46,332 nt of DNA. Origin: SAR324 cluster bacterium. GTDB lineage: Bacteria; SAR324; NAC60-12. Of this stretch, positions 21,164 through 30,613 are shown piece after piece; positions within the stretch are counted from its first letter, which is position 1; each line of letters opens with the position of its first letter. Location: the NCBI GenBank assembly GCA_029245725.1, contig JAQWOT010000163.1:1-46332 (forward strand), given 5' to 3'. Made by a program: the position numbers and the translations under genes. The notes beneath the pieces are model-generated. The model ran no database searches, was not told the origin of the DNA, and saw only the letters and a list, made by a program, of their open reading frames with translations.

Positions 21164-22057
21164 TCAGCGTGTCTCAATTTTTTGTAGGAAAAATAAGAAT
21201 TGAGGCAAACGGCCTGCCAAATTAGGATGTTCTGCGACAGGAAATACTACGCTGTAAGGTCCACCATAGGCAGAGATGATTTTCTGATTGTCAAAGGATC
21301 GAAGAACAACGATTGGTTTGCTCAAATCCTCTTTCTTCAGAGTAACAGAGTTGCCCACGTACGGAGTCAGTACAACCTCATTGAAATTATCGGAAGTTAG
21401 AAAATCTCGCAGAAATGCTCCCTCCGTTTGTGTATCTCGGTCCGGAGAAGGCAAGGGCTTACGATACCCTCTGGGAATTGGAGGGACGTAGTTTAAGAGT
21501 TCTCCAGGGAGAACTGCAATTGCTTTAGCATCCATCACTCTGGAGTTTCCACCTTCAACAACGGTTAACTCTGGAGTGAGGGAGGTTCCAAGAATTACCG
21601 TGTCGATGTACCAGTTGTATAGACCCTGATCACTGACCTGCTCATGCATCACCATATACGGTCCACCTCGATTCTTTTTAATGCGCTTTCCACCGCTGGA
21701 GAAAGCGATCATCACATTATCTTTTCGAATCTGCTCAATTGGTTCGTAGGTGACATAGACGTTGTTGGCAATGAAAGTGACCCCGTCAATGTTTTCATCA
21801 GCCTTGGTCAGCTCAATGATTTTCTCAAGCGTGATTCCCTTGAATTCCTTCTGACCATCGTCTGGGAAGTTAGGATCCTGGGAGGTGTAGGTTGTGGCGT
21901 TTGCTTCCATCATTTTCTGATCCAGCACAAAAGCTTGCCCTGAGTCTGCGCCAAGCTGTCCGATGATCTGAATTTGTGTTTGACGCGCCAAAAGGTTGTT
22001 GTTCATCAGGATGCAAGTAAACGCGAACAACCCTAGAATGAATCCTACTCGTTTCAT
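21164..22057 (-). CDS. Secreted protein with two sulfite-oxidase-like (SUOX fold) repeats
   Basis: 297 residues from the ATG at 22057, which has a GGAGA ribosome binding site; the frame extends upstream to 22177 but those residues are unlikely to be used. Residues 1-25 form a signal peptide. Two similar segments follow. The first (about 71-152) has FKGITLEKIIEL, VYVTYEPIEQI, GGKRIKKNRGGPYMVMHE and a closing NWYIDTVILG. The second (about 212-294) has EGAFLRDFL, SVTLKKEDLS, DNQKIISAYGGPYSVVFP and a closing LPQFLFFLQKIE. This order resembles the molybdopterin-binding sulfite-oxidase fold, but no cofactor cysteine is present, so it is probably a binding protein. It lies 14 bases upstream of the kinase gene. 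Confidence 0.6.
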   Translation of the reverse strand: MKRVGFILGLFAFTCILMNNNLLARQTQIQIIGQLGADSGQAFVLDQKMMEANATTYTSQDPNFPDDGQKEFKGITLEKIIELTKADENIDGVTFIANNVYVTYEPIEQIRKDNVMIAFSSGGKRIKKNRGGPYMVMHEQVSDQGLYNWYIDTVILGTSLTPELTVVEGGNSRVMDAKAIAVLPGELLNYVPPIPRGYRKPLPSPDRDTQTEGAFLRDFLTSDNFNEVVLTPYVGNSVTLKKEDLSKPIVVLRSFDNQKIISAYGGPYSVVFPVAEHPNLAGRLPQFLFFLQKIETR

Positions 22058-22266
22058 ATTTTCTCCAATCAGAGTTACCAAAGCTAGAACCACGTCGGGC
22101 TTGAATACACTAATTGCTGCTTTGAAAAAAACTTTAGTAACTTCTTTGATAGAAAAGAGCAAATTCGATGTTTGCAACCAAGTGGAGAAGGGGGTAGCAA
22201 GCAGAAGCTGTCCGAGGAGGAAAAAGATGTGATCAGCTTAGTTGAATGACCACGTCAGTAGCAGCA

Positions 22267-23409
22267 CTAATCGCCAGACTGAAGTACCCAATTTTGCGGC
22301 TGACCACAAAGATTGTAGTCAGCTCTGGAGAACCAACCGAGGCAACTCCAGGATAAAAATTGGGCAATGCGTGCGCTATCCCATGCACCTGGCAAACCAA
22401 CAGAATCAAGCCGAATAGCTTCCAAACGTTGATTCAATGGCAAGGATGGAGAAAGAAGCCGTTCAATCAAGTTCATCTCACTGTGCCCATCCCGAGACCA
22501 CTGCACCTGCTGCTGCAATGCGTCTCGCAGGTCCATCTCAGCGACACCGTTGGTCGTAGCATATTTATCTGCTTCGGTAGATCCTGATTTACTGAAATTG
22601 GGAAGAATGATTTGACCGAAACACATCCAAATAACGAAAGCCATGCTTGTCAGAAAAAGACCACGGACCGTTTCTACCCCAGCCCCGGCAAACAGACTGG
22701 CAGACCAAAAACCGTATAGGTTCCAGATAATCGCAACCAGTACTCCACGATGGCGACTGTGAGTGCGAACAGCTCCCACTCTACGTAAAATCTGAGCCCG
22801 GAGTTGGTCTTCAGACATTTCCAACCAGCGAGAGGGGATGATTGTTTTTTCAATCCAAGGCAGCCCAGTGATGCCTCCAGCAAATATAGGATTCTCCTCT
22901 CGGACAACATCAGTGCGACGACTGAGTAGTTCTCCGATACGGTTTCTCAAGTTTTCACGGTCTTCACTGTGCAATTTATATCCAACCAACCAGCGAGCGA
23001 GGGGTGCTTGCAGCAAAAGCATGATTAGAGACATGCAGATCAGTAGGCCCATGACACCCCAAGTCCCATAGAGCTTTCCGATCTCCATGATCAGCAAACC
23101 AGAGATCAGGAGAATGCCTGCATGTACTAAAATCCCGCGAAGTAAACGACTCCAAAACAGCGAGAAATTGCGCTGAATATTCTGAGCCAATCCAGGGATG
23201 ACATAGCCCCCTAGCAAATCCAGCGGCAACATAATCAACACATAGGCAATTACAATCAGTGCCCACCACTGCACTTCCACCAACAAGGAAGCTGGTTCTG
23301 CTGGAAATGCGCTTGATGGCCACTCATTGAATAACCCGACACAGGCCAAACCAACCCAGAAGATCAAGTTGAACAGTCCAAACCAAGCCCGTAGATTTGT
23401 GAATTTCAT
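22267..23409 (-). CDS. M48-like membrane protein with lost zinc ligands (pseudopeptidase)
   Basis: 380 residues with hydrophobic segments near 9-28, 45-66, 92-110, 115-135, 223-242 and 250-270. The layout follows M48 (HtpX/Ste24-like) membrane peptidases. A segment around 174-208 aligns with the sequence that precedes the zinc motif (NPIFAGGITG, then TIIPSRWLEMSEDQLRAQIL). The position of HExxH reads R209-R210-V-G212-A213. The later Glu-x-x-Ala-Asp motif survives only as S277-T-E-A280-D281-KYA, so the third ligand is Ser. A final SPSLPLNQRLEAIR resembles the M48 HPPLxxRI element. It therefore appears catalytically dead. It is the gene immediately downstream of proteorhodopsin, separated by a stem-loop. 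The family call is by eye. Confidence 0.55.
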   Translation of the reverse strand: MKFTNLRAWFGLFNLIFWVGLACVGLFNEWPSSAFPAEPASLLVEVQWWALIVIAYVLIMLPLDLLGGYVIPGLAQNIQRNFSLFWSRLLRGILVHAGILLISGLLIMEIGKLYGTWGVMGLLICMSLIMLLLQAPLARWLVGYKLHSEDRENLRNRIGELLSRRTDVVREENPIFAGGITGLPWIEKTIIPSRWLEMSEDQLRAQILRRVGAVRTHSRHRGVLVAIIWNLYGFWSASLFAGAGVETVRGLFLTSMAFVIWMCFGQIILPNFSKSGSTEADKYATTNGVAEMDLRDALQQQVQWSRDGHSEMNLIERLLSPSLPLNQRLEAIRLDSVGLPGAWDSARIAQFLSWSCLGWFSRADYNLCGQPQNWVLQSGD

Positions 23410-23430
23410 TATTGCTCTCTAGTTCGAACA

Positions 23431-23456
23431 TTGAGGGATCCAACAAGATCCCTCAA
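23431..23456 (-). promoter_or_regulatory. Intercistronic stem-loop after proteorhodopsin
   Basis: TTGAGGGATC and GATCCCTCAA form a perfect 10-bp stem around the 6-base loop CAACAA, between the rhodopsin stop (23514) and the next start (23409). No T-tract follows on the minus strand, so it is more likely a partial terminator or mRNA-stabilising hairpin that favours rhodopsin over the downstream genes. Confidence 0.75.
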
Positions 23457-23513
23457 GTTCACGATCAAGTGACAGACTGCAAACTGATTCTTCAGCACAG
23501 CCCCATTAACCAA

Positions 23514-24293
23514 TCAGGCTTTGGCAGCAGCTGCCTTCGCTGGAACAGGTGCGCTGTCTACAATGGTCTTCTCACGAGCAATGAAGTAAACCATGACTCC
23601 ATATCCACACTTCGCAGCAATGTCTGCAATGGTGTAGCCCACCTGAATACCAATCTCAGCGTCTGCTGTTCCTCCTGCAATGTTAAAGAGGTACGCGATT
23701 GGATAGAACATCCAGGTCACTAGTAAAACCATGCGGGTCTGTTCTACCAATTCTTTCACACGACCAGTCTCGTGCTCAATTTCAACCGCTAGTTCTTTCC
23801 AAAGCGTCCTCAAGATGTAGACGAATGGAATGAAGGACAGTACGAAGAAGATCGCCTGAGTGCTACCACTGTCAGACACCTCACCTGGATAGCCAAGTGC
23901 GATCATTAGGACGGAAGCAATAACCAAGCGTCCGAGCAAATCCATGGACTTCTCACGTGGCAATGCCAAGACAACGATCAATTCCACTAGCAGCAAAGGT
24001 ACTGTCAGCAACCAGTCCACATAACGATAGGCATCGTTGAAAGGTACTCCGGTAGCCATATACATTCCATTTTCACCAATGGTGTACGCTTCATCCCAAC
24101 TTTGGAAAATTCGGAAATAGTGGTAACCGGCAATCAATACCACCAAGCCGGAAACAACAATTGCTGGCCGATACTTGACCGCAATGTTCTCCTTGGCAAG
24201 AACGAAGAAGACGAAGGTGCCGAACATTGCGGCAATCGTCAGAGAGAACATGTTGTAGACCAGCGAAAATTGGTCCGGACTCAACTCAGGCAT
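23514..24293 (-). CDS. Proteorhodopsin, light-driven proton pump (green-type)
   Basis: 259 residues with seven transmembrane helices. The proton-pump triad is visible: D93 (acceptor), T97 and E104 (donor) in RYVDWLLTVPLLLVEL. H58 in AGYHYFR pairs with the acceptor. K228 in DIAAKCGYG is the retinal Schiff-base lysine. The spectral tuning site eight residues after D93 is L101, the green-absorbing form (Gln gives blue). The Ala/Lys-rich C-tail is cytoplasmic. A strong ribosome binding site (AAAGGAGA) precedes the start. The retinal needed for function is made by the divergent crt/blh operon beginning at 24815. Confidence 0.98.
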   Translation of the reverse strand: MPELSPDQFSLVYNMFSLTIAAMFGTFVFFVLAKENIAVKYRPAIVVSGLVVLIAGYHYFRIFQSWDEAYTIGENGMYMATGVPFNDAYRYVDWLLTVPLLLVELIVVLALPREKSMDLLGRLVIASVLMIALGYPGEVSDSGSTQAIFFVLSFIPFVYILRTLWKELAVEIEHETGRVKELVEQTRMVLLVTWMFYPIAYLFNIAGGTADAEIGIQVGYTIADIAAKCGYGVMVYFIAREKTIVDSAPVPAKAAAAKA

Positions 24294-24814
24294 ACGTTCT
24301 CCTTTTGTAGGAGTTAGGTTATGTAAGAAAGCTATAAGCCTTCTCGCCTCATGAAACAGCCGACATAACCAATGGGTTCCTTTGGTTTCTCAGCTAGTTC
24401 TTATCCTTTGACAAGAACGAAGGTTCAATCGACAAAAAGTAGACCAATTATGAAAAATTTATTTGAAAAAATAAGCTAAGAAATAAATTTTATTTTTTAT
24501 GATAAAAATAACTTTTTTTAATTTTTTAGTGATAAATTTAGATCAGAGTTGATTATCACTCTAAATTTATCATTTTTCTATATTGATAAAATTATTATAG
24601 GTATTCGATTAATTAAATAGTTAAAGTTGTTTCTGGTAATGTAAAGAGTAATTTATAATTTCGTGAGAAATCTTTTGTTTAACTCTTCTTATTTTTATCA
24701 CGAAAATTTATATTTTATATTTAAATTGTATTATCAGTATTTTAATAACTAAATTGGCTAAGCACACTCATTGCAAAAAGTTGGTCCTTCATTCAAACTG
24801 CATACGGAGGTTCC
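24294..24814. other. 521-base AT-rich divergent control region between rhodopsin and crtE
   Basis: No gene. It must contain the promoters of both arms of the phototrophy cluster. Besides the 13-bp inverted repeat at 24530-24572 there is a 6-bp stem (GTTCTT at 24397-24402 with AAGAAC at 24413-24418) in the presumed rhodopsin leader. The middle, 24440-24760, is extremely A+T rich. No -35/-10 pair could be called with confidence. Confidence 0.7.
24530..24572. promoter_or_regulatory. 13-bp inverted repeat between rhodopsin and crtE
   Basis: TGATAAATTTAGA (24530-24542) and TCTAAATTTATCA (24560-24572) are exact reverse complements separated by 17 bases. A second, overlapping pair, AGTGATAA (24528-24535) and TTATCACT (24553-24560), offers an alternative stem. 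It is roughly midway between the divergent starts, so it could be an operator for coordinated control of opsin and retinal synthesis, or a transcript-end hairpin. Confidence 0.6.
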
Positions 24815-25936
24815 ATGGAAATGAGTTCAAATGCTATTTATGATAATCCCTTTAGAGTATTGGGAGAGCGATATTTTTCTTTGCATATGAACCGTATCAA
24901 ACTGATAGAAAAAGAATTTATTTCAGAAAATAAATGTTTGAATTCTTTAAACTGGGCAGCGCAGAAAATTAAAATTGTACCAGCAGAAATGAAATCTTTT
25001 ATGCGGCAAAGTGGAATATTAAAAGATAGTGCTGACTATCATTTAATGACGGAAGGAAAACTCTTTAGAGCGCAGTTGGCCTTGGCTGCAGCGCACCTTC
25101 ATCGTTTAGATGAAAAGACTGCACTACAGTTGGCCTGTGTAACAGAATTTATTCATAACGCATCGCTCGTCCATGACGATATTCAGGATCAGGACGAAAC
25201 GAGAAGAAACTTTGCAACGGTTTGGAAGCAATATGGATCAAACAATGCGCTTCTTTTAGGGGATTTGCTGCTGAGCAAAGCCTATGAAATGCTAGGCATC
25301 CTAGGCATGCAGCACTACCGTGGTCCAAGATTGATCAGTCTACTTGGTGAGAAGATCGCACTGCTGATACAAGGACAGTCAGATGAGTTGGAGTACCAAA
25401 GTGATTTGACTCTGCCTCTACAAACCTATGAACACATCGCACTCTGCAAAACAGGAGCTCTGCTTTCCTTTCCCGTGGAGGCCGCCCTAATCTTGTCAGG
25501 TGTTCAAGAGAGGGAATGTGGCCGCGTAAGTCAAATTTTTAGCCGATTCGGAGTGGCCTACCAAATTCATGACGACATCATTGATTTATGCGCTTCAAAC
25601 AAAGGCCGTGATTTTCCGGGTTCAGATCTGCGGGAAGGTCGGGTCAGCGCAGTAATCCTACAATTTTGGCAGCAATCCTCACCGAAAGTGAGGGAGCAAT
25701 TCGAAATTTTCTTTAAGGATGAAAAATGTCGTCGTGAACCTAAGCAATTAGCCTACTGGGTCAATGCACTGGCCAACACACAGGTTCTGGAAGCAAGCTT
25801 TCAATACCTTACCGAGACGCTTGCAAACTGCCGCCAAGAAGCTGCCGAGCTACCAGATCCTCTAAGTTCATTCATGTTGTTAGTCATCTCTCAGTTGGAA
25901 AAGCGCTTTCAGCCAGAACTGGAGTTGCTGGCATGA
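24815..25936 (+). CDS. crtE: Polyprenyl diphosphate synthase, GGPP synthase type
   Basis: 373 residues. The first Asp-rich motif is D121-D122-I-Q-D125 in HNASLVHDDIQDQDETRRN and the second is D253-D254-IID257. Both chelate magnesium for chain elongation of isoprenoid diphosphates. Leading a carotenoid operon, it should supply C20 geranylgeranyl diphosphate. The protein is about 50 residues longer at the N-terminus than many CrtE proteins; that extension is A+T rich and has no recognised motif. A strong ribosome binding site (CGGAGG) supports the start. The stop overlaps the next start (ATGA). Confidence 0.93.
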   Translation: MEMSSNAIYDNPFRVLGERYFSLHMNRIKLIEKEFISENKCLNSLNWAAQKIKIVPAEMKSFMRQSGILKDSADYHLMTEGKLFRAQLALAAAHLHRLDEKTALQLACVTEFIHNASLVHDDIQDQDETRRNFATVWKQYGSNNALLLGDLLLSKAYEMLGILGMQHYRGPRLISLLGEKIALLIQGQSDELEYQSDLTLPLQTYEHIALCKTGALLSFPVEAALILSGVQERECGRVSQIFSRFGVAYQIHDDIIDLCASNKGRDFPGSDLREGRVSAVILQFWQQSSPKVREQFEIFFKDEKCRREPKQLAYWVNALANTQVLEASFQYLTETLANCRQEAAELPDPLSSFMLLVISQLEKRFQPELELLA

Positions 25937-28383
25937 CAGCATCGCCCACAGCCCTGGTAATAGGCTCCGGTTTTGGAGGTCTCGCTGCAGCCCTTCGTCT
26001 GAAAGCCAAGGGCTATGAGGTCACAATTGTTGAGCGTCAGCAAGATCTTGGTGGAAGAGCACGGGTCTTCCATAGAAATGGCTTTGTCTATGACGCTGGA
26101 CCAACCGTAGTAACAGCACCGTTTCTACTTGATGAGCTCTTTCAACTCTTCAACCGGAACCCAGAAGATTACCTAAAGATTGTTCCAGTCGAACCCTGGT
26201 ACCGCTTCCGATTCAATGATGGAGAAACCTTCGATTATGGAGGCACCATTGAGGGTACTTTGAATGAAATTGAAAGACTCTCTCCAGAAGATCGTGATGG
26301 ATATTTGAATCTTGTTCAGGAGTCACAGCAAATCTTTGAAAAGGGTTTTAGCGAACTGGCTCATATTCCGTTCCATCGATGGGGTACAATGCTCCGTCAG
26401 ATTCCTGCGCTAATAAAACTTCGCAGTTACCGTTCAGTCTATCAGATGGTTTCAGCTCACCTGAAAGACGAACGCCTCCGTCAGGCTTTCAGTATTCAGC
26501 CCCTCCTCGTGGGTGGAAATCCCTTTACTACTACCTCGATTTACTCGCTGATTCACTATCTTGAACGCAAATGGGGTGTACACTTTGCCATGGGCGGCAC
26601 AGGCGCCATCGTGGCTGGATTCGAGAAATTGCTTCGAGAAGAAGGTGTTGAAATAAAAACGAATACTACTGTCACCAAGATCATCACCCAACACCGACGG
26701 GTAACCGGAGTAGAACTTGATAACAGTGAGAAACCATTATCAGCAGATTTAGTAGTTTGTAACGCAGACCCCCCCTTCGTCTACGAACATCTGCTTGATT
26801 TTCCTCAGCGCAAACGTTGGTCGAGTTGGCGCCTTCGTCAGTTGCGCTACTCAATGGGACTCTTCGTTCTCTATTTTGGGACAACTCGTCAATACCCAGA
26901 AGTAGCTCATCACACAATCACGATGGGACCTCGCTATAAGGAACTGCTAAGCGATATTTTTCACAAAAAGCATCTTGCTACAGACATGAGCTTGTATCTG
27001 CACCGTCCGACAGCAACAGATCCAACGATGGCTCCTGCTGGTTGTGATACTTTTTATGTTCTCTCTCCTGTCCCAAATAACCTTAGTGGGATCAACTGGG
27101 ATGAAGTAGGGCCGCGTTATCGTGATGCCGTTGTCAAAGAGTTGGAACGTACTCTTCTACCTGGCTTGAGCGAGTGCATTACAGAGGAATTTTTTGTGAC
27201 TCCTGATTACTTTGAGCAGGAACTTCTGACACGCCATGGCACTGGATTTTCGATCCAACCACTGTTTACCCAATCTGCCAATTTCCGTTTTCACAATAAG
27301 TCAGAAGAAGTGGAAGGCCTCTATTTTGTGGGCGCTGGAACACACCCTGGAGCAGGGATGCCAGGAGTATTGAGTTCTGCGAAAGTTTTGGATCAACTGA
27401 TCTCTTCAGTATCCAACAAAACGACTCCGCTCAGGGCTCTGAAAAAGACATCATCATCCCGCACAAAATCTGAGACAAAAACTCATGCAGCGGTATTGGC
27501 CTATCATGGAAAAAGCTTTCACTGGGCTGGCCAACTGCTACCACAATCACAGTTTAATGACGCCTCATTACTATATGCCTTTTGTCGGCATGTAGATGAT
27601 TTGGCAGACGAAGCAAGTGACTCCGAAGAAGCTAAAACTCGACTGGATCAATTGTGTCAGGACCTTTGGAGTGACAAGCCCAAACAGCCTTTGAACCAAG
27701 CGTTTCGTGAACTGATGGCAGATCAACAGTTGGAACAGTGTTGGGTAGAAGACTTGATTGAAGGTGTACTTTCTGACTTAGGGGAAGTCTGTCTGCAAAC
27801 CAAGGAAGAACTTCTCTGCTACGCCTATCGAGTTGCCGGAACAGTTGGTTTAATGATGGCCCAGGTTTTGGGCTGCCGTGATCCCAATGCATTGGCGTTT
27901 GCGACTGACCTGGGAATTGCCATGCAACTGACCAATATTGCTCGTGATGTCCATGAAGATGCCCAACGTGGTCGCCTCTACTTACCTCAGCAATGGCTTG
28001 GAGAGAATACAGTATCCGCTGTGCAGTTGATTCAGGGGGACCAAGAAGCACGTCAAGTAGTTGAAACAGCCGTGGAACGCTTGCTTGATCTCGCAGAGTT
28101 GTATTATCGCAGTGGGTACCACGGCATGCGCTACTTGCCCATGCGTGTACGCTTGGGAATCCTCACAGCACGGGCACTTTATCGTGCAATTGGGGATGAA
28201 ATTTACCCCGAGCCTAGGATTATTTGGGACAGGCGAGCCCGTGTTTCTATGTCTCGTAAGTGTAAGTTGACCATCACTAGTTTGTTTGAATTTCTCTTTG
28301 ATACCCAAACCTGGCCAGTAGGGAAACCTCAGCAACACGAACCACAATTGCACCAGCACCTGAATTATGTGCGGATTGGCTAA
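25933..28383 (+). CDS. crtI-crtB: Fused phytoene desaturase - phytoene synthase (CrtI-CrtB)
   Basis: 816 residues encoding two enzymes in one chain. Residues 1-490 are CrtI: the FAD-binding motif VIGSGFGGLAAALRLKAKGY, the substrate-region VYDAGPTVVTAPFLLDELF and the C-terminal HPGAGMPGVLSSAKV. A polar Ser/Thr/Lys linker spans about 491-518. Residues 519-816 are CrtB: the first Asp motif D555-D556 in FCRHVDDLADE and the second in NIARDVHEDAQRGRLYLP near 669-686. The product should condense two GGPP to phytoene and desaturate it to lycopene. No frameshift or internal stop is seen at the junction, so the fusion appears real. It is translationally coupled to crtE and crtY. Confidence 0.93.
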   Translation: MTASPTALVIGSGFGGLAAALRLKAKGYEVTIVERQQDLGGRARVFHRNGFVYDAGPTVVTAPFLLDELFQLFNRNPEDYLKIVPVEPWYRFRFNDGETFDYGGTIEGTLNEIERLSPEDRDGYLNLVQESQQIFEKGFSELAHIPFHRWGTMLRQIPALIKLRSYRSVYQMVSAHLKDERLRQAFSIQPLLVGGNPFTTTSIYSLIHYLERKWGVHFAMGGTGAIVAGFEKLLREEGVEIKTNTTVTKIITQHRRVTGVELDNSEKPLSADLVVCNADPPFVYEHLLDFPQRKRWSSWRLRQLRYSMGLFVLYFGTTRQYPEVAHHTITMGPRYKELLSDIFHKKHLATDMSLYLHRPTATDPTMAPAGCDTFYVLSPVPNNLSGINWDEVGPRYRDAVVKELERTLLPGLSECITEEFFVTPDYFEQELLTRHGTGFSIQPLFTQSANFRFHNKSEEVEGLYFVGAGTHPGAGMPGVLSSAKVLDQLISSVSNKTTPLRALKKTSSSRTKSETKTHAAVLAYHGKSFHWAGQLLPQSQFNDASLLYAFCRHVDDLADEASDSEEAKTRLDQLCQDLWSDKPKQPLNQAFRELMADQQLEQCWVEDLIEGVLSDLGEVCLQTKEELLCYAYRVAGTVGLMMAQVLGCRDPNALAFATDLGIAMQLTNIARDVHEDAQRGRLYLPQQWLGENTVSAVQLIQGDQEARQVVETAVERLLDLAELYYRSGYHGMRYLPMRVRLGILTARALYRAIGDEIYPEPRIIWDRRARVSMSRKCKLTITSLFEFLFDTQTWPVGKPQQHEPQLHQHLNYVRIG

Positions 28384-28384
28384 A

Positions 28385-29617
28385 ATGCAGGTCTGGGACG
28401 CAATCGTAATTGGAGCTGGCTGTGCTGGACTGACTCTCGTCAATGAGTTGATTACTCGTGGGGGGGACCGGCTTAGGGTTTTGTTGTTGGAAGAAAGAAA
28501 CGAGTACACAAATGATCGTACTTGGTGCTTCTGGAATACGCTCAATCATCGTTTTGAAAATGTGGTTTCCTGTCGTTGGCCAAGTTGGAGTGTCCATTAT
28601 GCAGGAGAAGTTACCCACTGCCGAGGCGCTTACCAATACCAGTATTTGCGAGCAGAACACTTTTACAAGCTGGCCCTAGCTCCAGTCTCTTCTTCGTCAA
28701 AAACAATTCTGAAATTGGGGGAGCATGTCCAGACTGTTCAGGAGGAGGAAGACCTTGTTAGTATTCAAACCCATCAAGGGACACATGTGGGTCGGTATGT
28801 CATCGACACACGACCGATGGATCAGCAGAATCGAAATGCAAAGCATCCTGATGTCCATTGGCTTCAGCATTTTTTGGGCTGGAAAGTAAAAACAGAGCAC
28901 GCTTGTTTTCAAAGTAAGCAAGTCACTCTGATGGACTTTATAGGAGGGGAAGATGCAGCGGAAGTTCTCGAAGTTAGTGATAAAGAAACAGATGTTGCTC
29001 TGCCAGGCATCCCTTTCATCTACGTCCTACCTTTCTCATCAACCGAAGCACTAGTTGAGAGTACTTGGTTTGGGCCAAAGGTGTTGGCAAAGAGTGTCTA
29101 TCGAGAACAGCTGCAAAGGTATCTGCAAAGGAAAGAAGCGGGGAAATACGAAATCATCGAACAGGAATATGGTGTGCTGCCAATGTCCACGCTACCAACG
29201 ACCACGCAGCCAACAAGAAGAATTAGGTATCTTGGTCTGGCAGGTGGTGCAGCCCGCCCCAGTACTGGCTATGCGTTCTTGGCAATTCAGCGTCAGGCAC
29301 AAAGGCTTGCGGATCAATTATTAAAGGGGGACTGGGAAAACTTCCCAGATTATTACAGCACCCAATCCCGATTATTGGACGCTATTTTTCTAAGAGTTCT
29401 TCAGGAAAATCCAAAACGAGGTCCTGAATTGTTTTGGCGGCTGTTTCGATATGCAAACCCGGATGCGCTAGTTCGCTTCCTCGCCGATACCGCATCACTG
29501 AAAGATCTGTGGGAGATAGCTACTTGTTTGCCCTCTGGAATCTTTCTCAAGCAAAGTCTTGTTCCAAACTTTTTGCAGAAAAAAGAAATGGGAACTACTC
29601 AGATTCAGGGTATCTAG
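28385..29617 (+). CDS. crtY: Lycopene beta-cyclase
   Basis: About 410 residues. The N-terminal dinucleotide-binding motif is AIVIGAGCAGLTLVNEL. RTWCFWN near 40 and the PFSSTEALVESTWF block near 220 are typical of the CrtY flavoenzyme family, which closes both ends of lycopene to beta-carotene. ATG 28385 lies 2 bases after the crtI-crtB stop and is preferred. An ATG at 28367 would add 6 residues and overlap the previous gene. Neither start has a strong ribosome binding site, so coupling is likely. It supplies the substrate of the next gene. Confidence 0.93.
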   Translation: MQVWDAIVIGAGCAGLTLVNELITRGGDRLRVLLLEERNEYTNDRTWCFWNTLNHRFENVVSCRWPSWSVHYAGEVTHCRGAYQYQYLRAEHFYKLALAPVSSSSKTILKLGEHVQTVQEEEDLVSIQTHQGTHVGRYVIDTRPMDQQNRNAKHPDVHWLQHFLGWKVKTEHACFQSKQVTLMDFIGGEDAAEVLEVSDKETDVALPGIPFIYVLPFSSTEALVESTWFGPKVLAKSVYREQLQRYLQRKEAGKYEIIEQEYGVLPMSTLPTTTQPTRRIRYLGLAGGAARPSTGYAFLAIQRQAQRLADQLLKGDWENFPDYYSTQSRLLDAIFLRVLQENPKRGPELFWRLFRYANPDALVRFLADTASLKDLWEIATCLPSGIFLKQSLVPNFLQKKEMGTTQIQGI

Positions 29618-29620
29618 TCA

Positions 29621-30613
29621 ATGCTCAATATCCAACTGAGTGAGGAACAACAACGACTTTTTCTGTTACTTGGTGGACTGTTCCTATTGGCAGGAATGAA
29701 GGAGTGGTTTGCTTGGCAAGAATGGCACTGGGGTTTCCTTTTTCTATTGATTTCTCTGCTGGGCTTGCCACACGGTGCTTTAGATCATCAGGTTGGCCGT
29801 TCCTGGCTTGAGCCAATGCAAGGGCGAATTTGGCCATTCAGCTTCGGATTGTTTTATCTAGGACTGCTTGGGCTAGTCCTAGTCTGCTGGATTCAGTGGC
29901 CAGCATTGCTACTCTCTCTTTTCCTGCTGTTGTCAGTTCTCCACTTTGGGCAAGAAGATACCGCATCATTGGATCTGGGAGAAAGGCTCTACTGGACACA
30001 CGTTGCATTTCGGGGCCTTTTACCACTCTGCGCTCCAGCATTTTTTGCAACTGAAACAACAGGACAACTGCTCGCTCCCCTGCTGCTTCAACCAGAGTTG
30101 GCTGAGCATGCTCAAGGTGTCGCAATTTTTGGAGCCACACTCTTTGCGCCCCTGTGTCTCCTTGGGGTCCTGATTTATGCTCGCTGGTGGCAGATTGGTG
30201 GGCCATTGGGGAAAATCATTGAACAAATCACAGAATCTATCCTGATCATACTCTGCTTCGTTCTACTATCTCCCTTGGAAGGCTTTGTTCTCTACTTTTG
30301 CCTCCATCATTCTTTACGACATAGCCAAGAGATGGCACAGTGGCTTTTTCCGAATGACTCAAAGCCACTTCGTCAATTTTGGAAGCAGGCTCGGCCTCTA
30401 AGTTTGGCTGCAATGGTCATGGCTCTGTTTGCCTGGATTTGGCTGCCCAACCGTGCTTTGGAGTGGGGTGGCTTGCAGGTGATATTCATTGGTCTTGCGG
30501 CTCTGACCCTTCCACATGTGGTTTTGCACTGGTTAGTCTTCGACCTCCGGCGACCTCTGCCGGTCTTTTCGACTCCTGAGCGAGAATTCTCATGGAATCA
30601 CATCTCCCATTGA
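29621..30613 (+). CDS. blh: Beta-carotene 15,15'-dioxygenase (Brp/Blh family)
   Basis: 330 residues of integral membrane protein that cleaves beta-carotene into two retinal molecules. The iron-binding histidine blocks of the family are visible: LGLPHGALDHQ near 47, LHFGQED near 108, YFCLHHSLRHSQE near 228 and LPHVVLHWLVFD near 300. Hydrophobic helices alternate with these blocks. It begins 3 bases after crtY and its end overlaps ispH by 22 bases. This is the last committed step making the chromophore for the proteorhodopsin at 23514-24293. Confidence 0.95.
   Translation: MLNIQLSEEQQRLFLLLGGLFLLAGMKEWFAWQEWHWGFLFLLISLLGLPHGALDHQVGRSWLEPMQGRIWPFSFGLFYLGLLGLVLVCWIQWPALLLSLFLLLSVLHFGQEDTASLDLGERLYWTHVAFRGLLPLCAPAFFATETTGQLLAPLLLQPELAEHAQGVAIFGATLFAPLCLLGVLIYARWWQIGGPLGKIIEQITESILIILCFVLLSPLEGFVLYFCLHHSLRHSQEMAQWLFPNDSKPLRQFWKQARPLSLAAMVMALFAWIWLPNRALEWGGLQVIFIGLAALTLPHVVLHWLVFDLRRPLPVFSTPEREFSWNHISH

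Follow-up and report, generated by a model that had tools for sequence, protein, structure and literature searches.

The window analyzed here is the whole 46,332-nt stretch of contig JAQWOT010000163.1 from a SAR324 cluster bacterium. It encodes a rhodopsin, a second gene on the same strand (hereafter, the pseudopeptidase gene) and divergent retinal-synthesis genes, with the following features.

22267..23409, minus strand: pseudopeptidase, a predicted inactive Ste24/M48A-fold membrane protein of 380 aa (ORF, profile comparison, predicted structure).
23514..24293, minus strand: rhodopsin (PF01036) of the D97-T101-L105-E108 type (Pfam match and sequence).
23410..23513, minus strand: rhodopsin/pseudopeptidase intergenic region with two predicted stem-loops (folding prediction).
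24815..30613, plus strand: divergent retinal-synthesis genes crtE, crtI-crtB fusion, crtY and blh (sequence and known gene content).
22771..22785, minus strand: codons 209-213, reading RRVGA in place of HExxH (R209 and R210 present in all of 30 homologues).
22579..22581, minus strand: codon 277, Ser where the third zinc ligand would be Glu (30/30 homologues have V/S/T here).
~22340..24300, strand not applicable: allele-exchange tract covering the rhodopsin and ~340 pseudopeptidase codons (nucleotide identity in 150-nt bins).

The pseudopeptidase ORF begins 104 nt past the rhodopsin stop codon, in agreement with the first-pass annotation, which had placed it directly downstream of a proteorhodopsin. 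The rhodopsin fits the description of the 'XR-like' SAR324 rhodopsin in the main text of Boeuf et al. 2021 (PMC8364033), which is of the DTE-L type and lies beside retinal genes in a synteny called highly conserved; the window shares with that locus both the rhodopsin type and the retinal genes alongside. Neither M48 nor a peptidase is mentioned in the main text of that paper. In the intergenic region, two stem-loops are predicted for both of the allele groups described below (window, G002 and G004; z -4.3 to -6.8) despite unrelated sequence, the stronger one at about 23426-23461. No terminator-like T-run lies behind the second stem-loop, and a possible role of the predicted structures is therefore in the processing or stability of the mRNA. 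Downstream of the pseudopeptidase gene, at 21164-22072 (minus strand), the window encodes a secreted-looking protein with a weak match to a molybdopterin oxidoreductase domain (PF00174, E 1.7e-4), followed by a histidine kinase and then a response regulator, which are conserved in the genus genomes whose contigs extend there.

Pfam (hmmscan) and NCBIfam scans of the window protein gave zero matches, and a PDB sequence search with the pseudopeptidase found nothing. PF16491 (Peptidase_M48_N), run over the phylum, matched two orthologues, one in G002 (E 1.7e-4, 22.4 bits) and one in G003 (E 7.5e-4, 19.8 bits), both short of the cut-off of 27 bits, and neither PF01435 nor PF16491 was matched above its curated cut-off by the pseudopeptidase family. 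When compared by hhalign with 13 active, HExxH-bearing Ste24-like proteins, the alignment of the genus sequences obtained Prob 96.8 (E 3e-10) and a 30-member family alignment Prob 96.5 (E 9e-10); rhodopsins, used as the negative control, scored Prob 0.2. The hhalign alignment spans residues 1-337, with RRVGA falling opposite HExxH and A280-D281 opposite the A-D that the active proteins conserve. An AlphaFold2 model, whose input alignment held family sequences only with the active proteases absent from it, reached a pLDDT of 87.6 and a pTM of 0.89; a model from the six genus sequences alone (pLDDT 35.8) was set aside. A Foldseek search of the PDB with the former returned 12 matches at E <= 0.001, all of them ZMPSTE24/Ste24p (prob 1.0, TM 0.58-0.63).

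The M48 layout proposed in the first-pass annotation, which had suggested structure prediction and an M48 profile comparison as checks, is thus borne out by three independent lines, namely the sub-cut-off PF16491 matches, hhalign and Foldseek, and at the level of prediction the fold is settled as Ste24-type. With Ste24/ZMPSTE24 and the bacterial Ste24-like M48A peptidases (PF16491 plus PF01435), the pseudopeptidase shares the overall predicted fold, the helix layout, D281 and R328. It differs from Ste24/ZMPSTE24 in having RRxxx for HExxH and V/S/T for the third-ligand Glu, and in missing the first Ste24 transmembrane helix. HtpX and BepA have the M48 catalytic-domain topology in common with the pseudopeptidase. 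BepA was weak in Foldseek (E 2 and worse) and is not a multi-pass Ste24-type membrane protein, and both HtpX and BepA have an intact zinc site.

All six genomes of the window's genus carry the gene (71-96% identity), and a profile search yielded one distant full-length relative, in G674, whose gene content suggests the Planctomycetota-Verrucomicrobiota group. Homologues were then counted in 27 of 245 genomes of G674's order, and the 30-member alignment comprises 6 sequences from SAR324 and 24 from this order of another phylum. In a tree with a root chosen for drawing only, a fully supported branch sets all 30 members apart from three active Ste24-like proteins. The protein belongs to a conserved and apparently undescribed family, which we name the RR family since Arg-Arg replaces the His-Glu of HExxH. 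Pfam and NCBIfam contain no model matching it. The family was absent outside the SAR324 genus and G674's order in broad samples of 357 and 383 genomes, a fraction of prokaryotic diversity, and IMG/VR and plasmid scans gave no relatives; the searches covered at most 1,980 genome scans, repeats included, which is a small part of known diversity. Among the weak non-member matches of the family profile in the 357-genome search, seven of those inspected were HExxH-bearing proteins of 369-425 aa. A profile of the genus sequences alone had weak genome matches as well, of which L030 was a true HExxH Ste24-like protein, and most (L029, L031 and L036) were rejected as unrelated proteins. Pseudoproteases are a known kind of protein; neither the literature searched nor Pfam or NCBIfam yielded a pseudopeptidase family of M48A fold, be it within bacterial light modules or as part of a rhodopsin cassette.

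The catalytic site is lost throughout the family. The motif residues reported from the window (RRVGA at 209-213, Ser277, A280-D281 and PLNQRLEAIR at 324-333) are correct and are kept in the six genus genomes with small substitutions, and the ligand positions were surveyed across all 30 members. Arg-Arg (R209, R210) occupies the His-Glu positions of HExxH in all 30, the second His position is Q/A/M/I, and the third ligand position, four residues before the conserved Asp, is V/S/T in 30/30 and never Glu. By comparison, D281 is retained in 29/30 members and R328 in 30/30, and D64, F176, G178, G179, P192, W195, W229, P270, P321, R347, R362, G369, P371 and W374 are also invariant. An intact HExxH placed elsewhere in homologues, which would have argued against a dead protease, was found in none of the 30 members when their entire length was searched (0/30). 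With every zinc ligand gone, M48 catalysis of the classical kind is excluded, and from these residues no catalysis is expected of the pseudopeptidase. It is very improbable that the protein is still an active peptidase, working through a rebuilt metal site or by other chemistry. The H217-S-R-H220 stretch, conserved in the SAR324 members right behind the dead motif, could be read in favor of this, but neither H217 nor H220 is conserved among the 24 members from outside SAR324, for which reason an alternative metal site there was dropped, and the family offers no alternative invariant His/Glu/Asp set besides D64 and the near-invariant D281.

The absence of every metal ligand would also suit a Ste24 protease gene in decay. 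We give this explanation almost no credence, as the ORF is intact in six genomes, dN/dS is 0.04-0.09 within allele groups, and the identical substitution is fixed across phyla. The fold is kept, the catalytic residues are gone, and the sequence is under purifying selection; with the whole membrane fold preserved and Arg-Arg invariably found where the catalytic residues once were, a positive function is implied. The gene product is almost certainly a member of a catalytically dead Ste24-fold family, and the idea of a dead membrane protease of M48 layout adjoining the rhodopsin is strongly supported.

To assess the coupling with rhodopsin we compared the locus across genomes. In the window's genus, the pseudopeptidase gene lies directly behind the rhodopsin gene in 6/6 genomes. 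None of 46 other genomes of the phylum has it, although two of them (G021 and G030) carry a different rhodopsin (27% identity). In the sampled genomes of other phyla, rhodopsin neighborhoods contained crt or unrelated genes and no pseudopeptidase gene. The proposed survey of proteorhodopsin neighborhoods was positive in the genus and found no homologue beside rhodopsins in the sampled genomes of other phyla; genomic coupling holds in the genus and fails for the wider family.

Within the genus, the two genes follow a pattern of their own. Against G001/G004, the flanking proteins are 88-99% identical (89-99% and mostly 95-99% against G004), versus 81% for the rhodopsin and 71-73% for the pseudopeptidase (71% against G004). 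The pattern is reversed against G002/G005, with 98-99% for the rhodopsin and 94-96% for the pseudopeptidase (against G005, 98% and 94%, with flanking proteins at 92-97%). Nucleotide identity to G001/G003/G004 is 56-81% in the 150-nt bins of the tract and 50% in the intergenic bin; the drop near 22350 is sharp, and identity is regained around 24300-24450, a graded upstream boundary. Because of this drop, and because synonymous sites are saturated within codons 1-340 and unsaturated in the tail, we conclude that rhodopsin and pseudopeptidase were exchanged jointly as one ~2-kb allele between SAR324 genomes whose flanks share 89-99% identity. The strong C-terminal conservation within SAR324 (residues 344-380) lies outside the exchange tract and was discounted as a functional signal in its own right. 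Since neighboring genes travel together by default, the joint exchange supports a partnership and is no proof of interaction. A functional tie to the rhodopsin gains support from the 6/6 synteny and the joint allele exchange.

Outside SAR324, the RR family genes have other neighbors. A photolyase-related gene (DPRP, PF04244), a DNA photolyase/photolyase FAD domain gene or UvdE occurs within about 10 kb in 18/27 genomes of G674's order, with the DPRP, photolyase and UvdE families confirmed by separate family assignment. DPRP is within about 10 kb in 11 of the 19 genomes having any PF04244 gene, versus a chance expectation estimated at ~0.5% per genome (about one copy per 4-5 Mb genome). Some of these genomes are close relatives (G953/G995, G822/G935 and G893/G971/G980), which lowers the number of independent cases, and the enrichment is still large. 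Roughly one relative in three lacks a recognized light gene in its vicinity; several of these are on contigs of only 4-12 kb. TspO, SDR, flavin amine oxidoreductase and DUF2071 genes are recurrent neighbors, and a MerR-type regulator is in the region in three genomes. In L096-L098, UvdE, TspO and the pseudopeptidase are consecutive; the UvdE match is partial (shortened) in L096, L097 and L099. In two distant relatives (L103, 1493-4437; L117, 2378-5188) the pseudopeptidase gene has the same three genes close by, one for a type III polyketide synthase, one methyltransferase-like and one for an FAD oxidoreductase. In G822 and G935 (L102 and L120) the homologue is broken by a frameshift and stop with a remnant of a photolyase-domain gene alongside, as if the two were a module being lost together.

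Most relatives thus sit beside photolyases, a UV endonuclease or TspO rather than a rhodopsin, making light exposure the common denominator, and the RR family is very likely light-linked. As relatives adjoin photolyases with no adjacent rhodopsin, a rhodopsin client cannot hold for every member, and the pseudopeptidase family is light-associated rather than rhodopsin-specific. The role first suggested for the protein, a chaperone or assembly/turnover factor for rhodopsin, is probably too narrow.

These same neighborhoods would suit a general photo-stress membrane factor, for example one damping other membrane proteases or stabilizing the membrane, that makes no contact with rhodopsin and shares its locus since both are useful in light. 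This seems doubtful given that in SAR324 the gene always adjoins the rhodopsin gene and is replaced jointly with it, and that it is missing from the two relatives with a different rhodopsin. The main alternative is an intramembrane binder or carrier, not a chaperone, of a small hydrophobic anion or isoprenoid (retinoid, carotenoid, prenyl-diphosphate or lipid), whose charged head the two invariant arginines would bind. It is suggested by the Arg-Arg invariant in 30/30 exactly at the catalytic position, by the carotenoid and retinal genes near the SAR324 copy, and by the TspO and flavin amine oxidoreductase genes by several relatives; moreover, Ste24 encloses a large chamber within the membrane and acts on farnesylated substrates. 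On balance we think this role rather unlikely.

The placement of other members beside light-repair genes indicates that the job is probably a non-cutting one linked to light, and for a non-cutting membrane partner with a chaperone-like role we see roughly even chances. The RR family is kept by selection in light-related gene modules and provides, in SAR324, the second gene of a rhodopsin cassette that is probably expressed as an operon. Under the partner model, which is the most economical reading, the Ste24 intramembrane chamber would be retained with its zinc chemistry gone, and may bind or hold a membrane partner without cutting it. In SAR324 the partner would be the rhodopsin (in folding, retinal loading, protection or turnover), and in the relatives it may be other light-exposed membrane components. 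An analogy is provided by the inactive rhomboids (iRhoms) and other pseudoproteases, which likewise keep a membrane protease fold and a sequence under selection with catalysis lost; iRhoms have a different protease fold and are non-cutting partners of membrane clients, whereas the client of the pseudopeptidase is putative.

In its fullest form, the proposal is that a new non-catalytic Ste24-fold family is a conserved part of bacterial light-response modules and, in SAR324, an obligate co-adapted partner of a proton-pumping rhodopsin, with the protease chamber and its two invariant arginines loading, holding or protecting the pump or its chromophore. We offer this only tentatively. The SAR324 cassette consists of two genes and is small enough for expression with and without the partner, making the question directly testable. 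The RR signature provides a handle for annotating a membrane protein family left blank by Pfam and NCBIfam. If the proposal is true, abundant ocean rhodopsins would have a dedicated and so far unnoticed membrane partner, and the Ste24 fold would have a non-proteolytic use tied to light.
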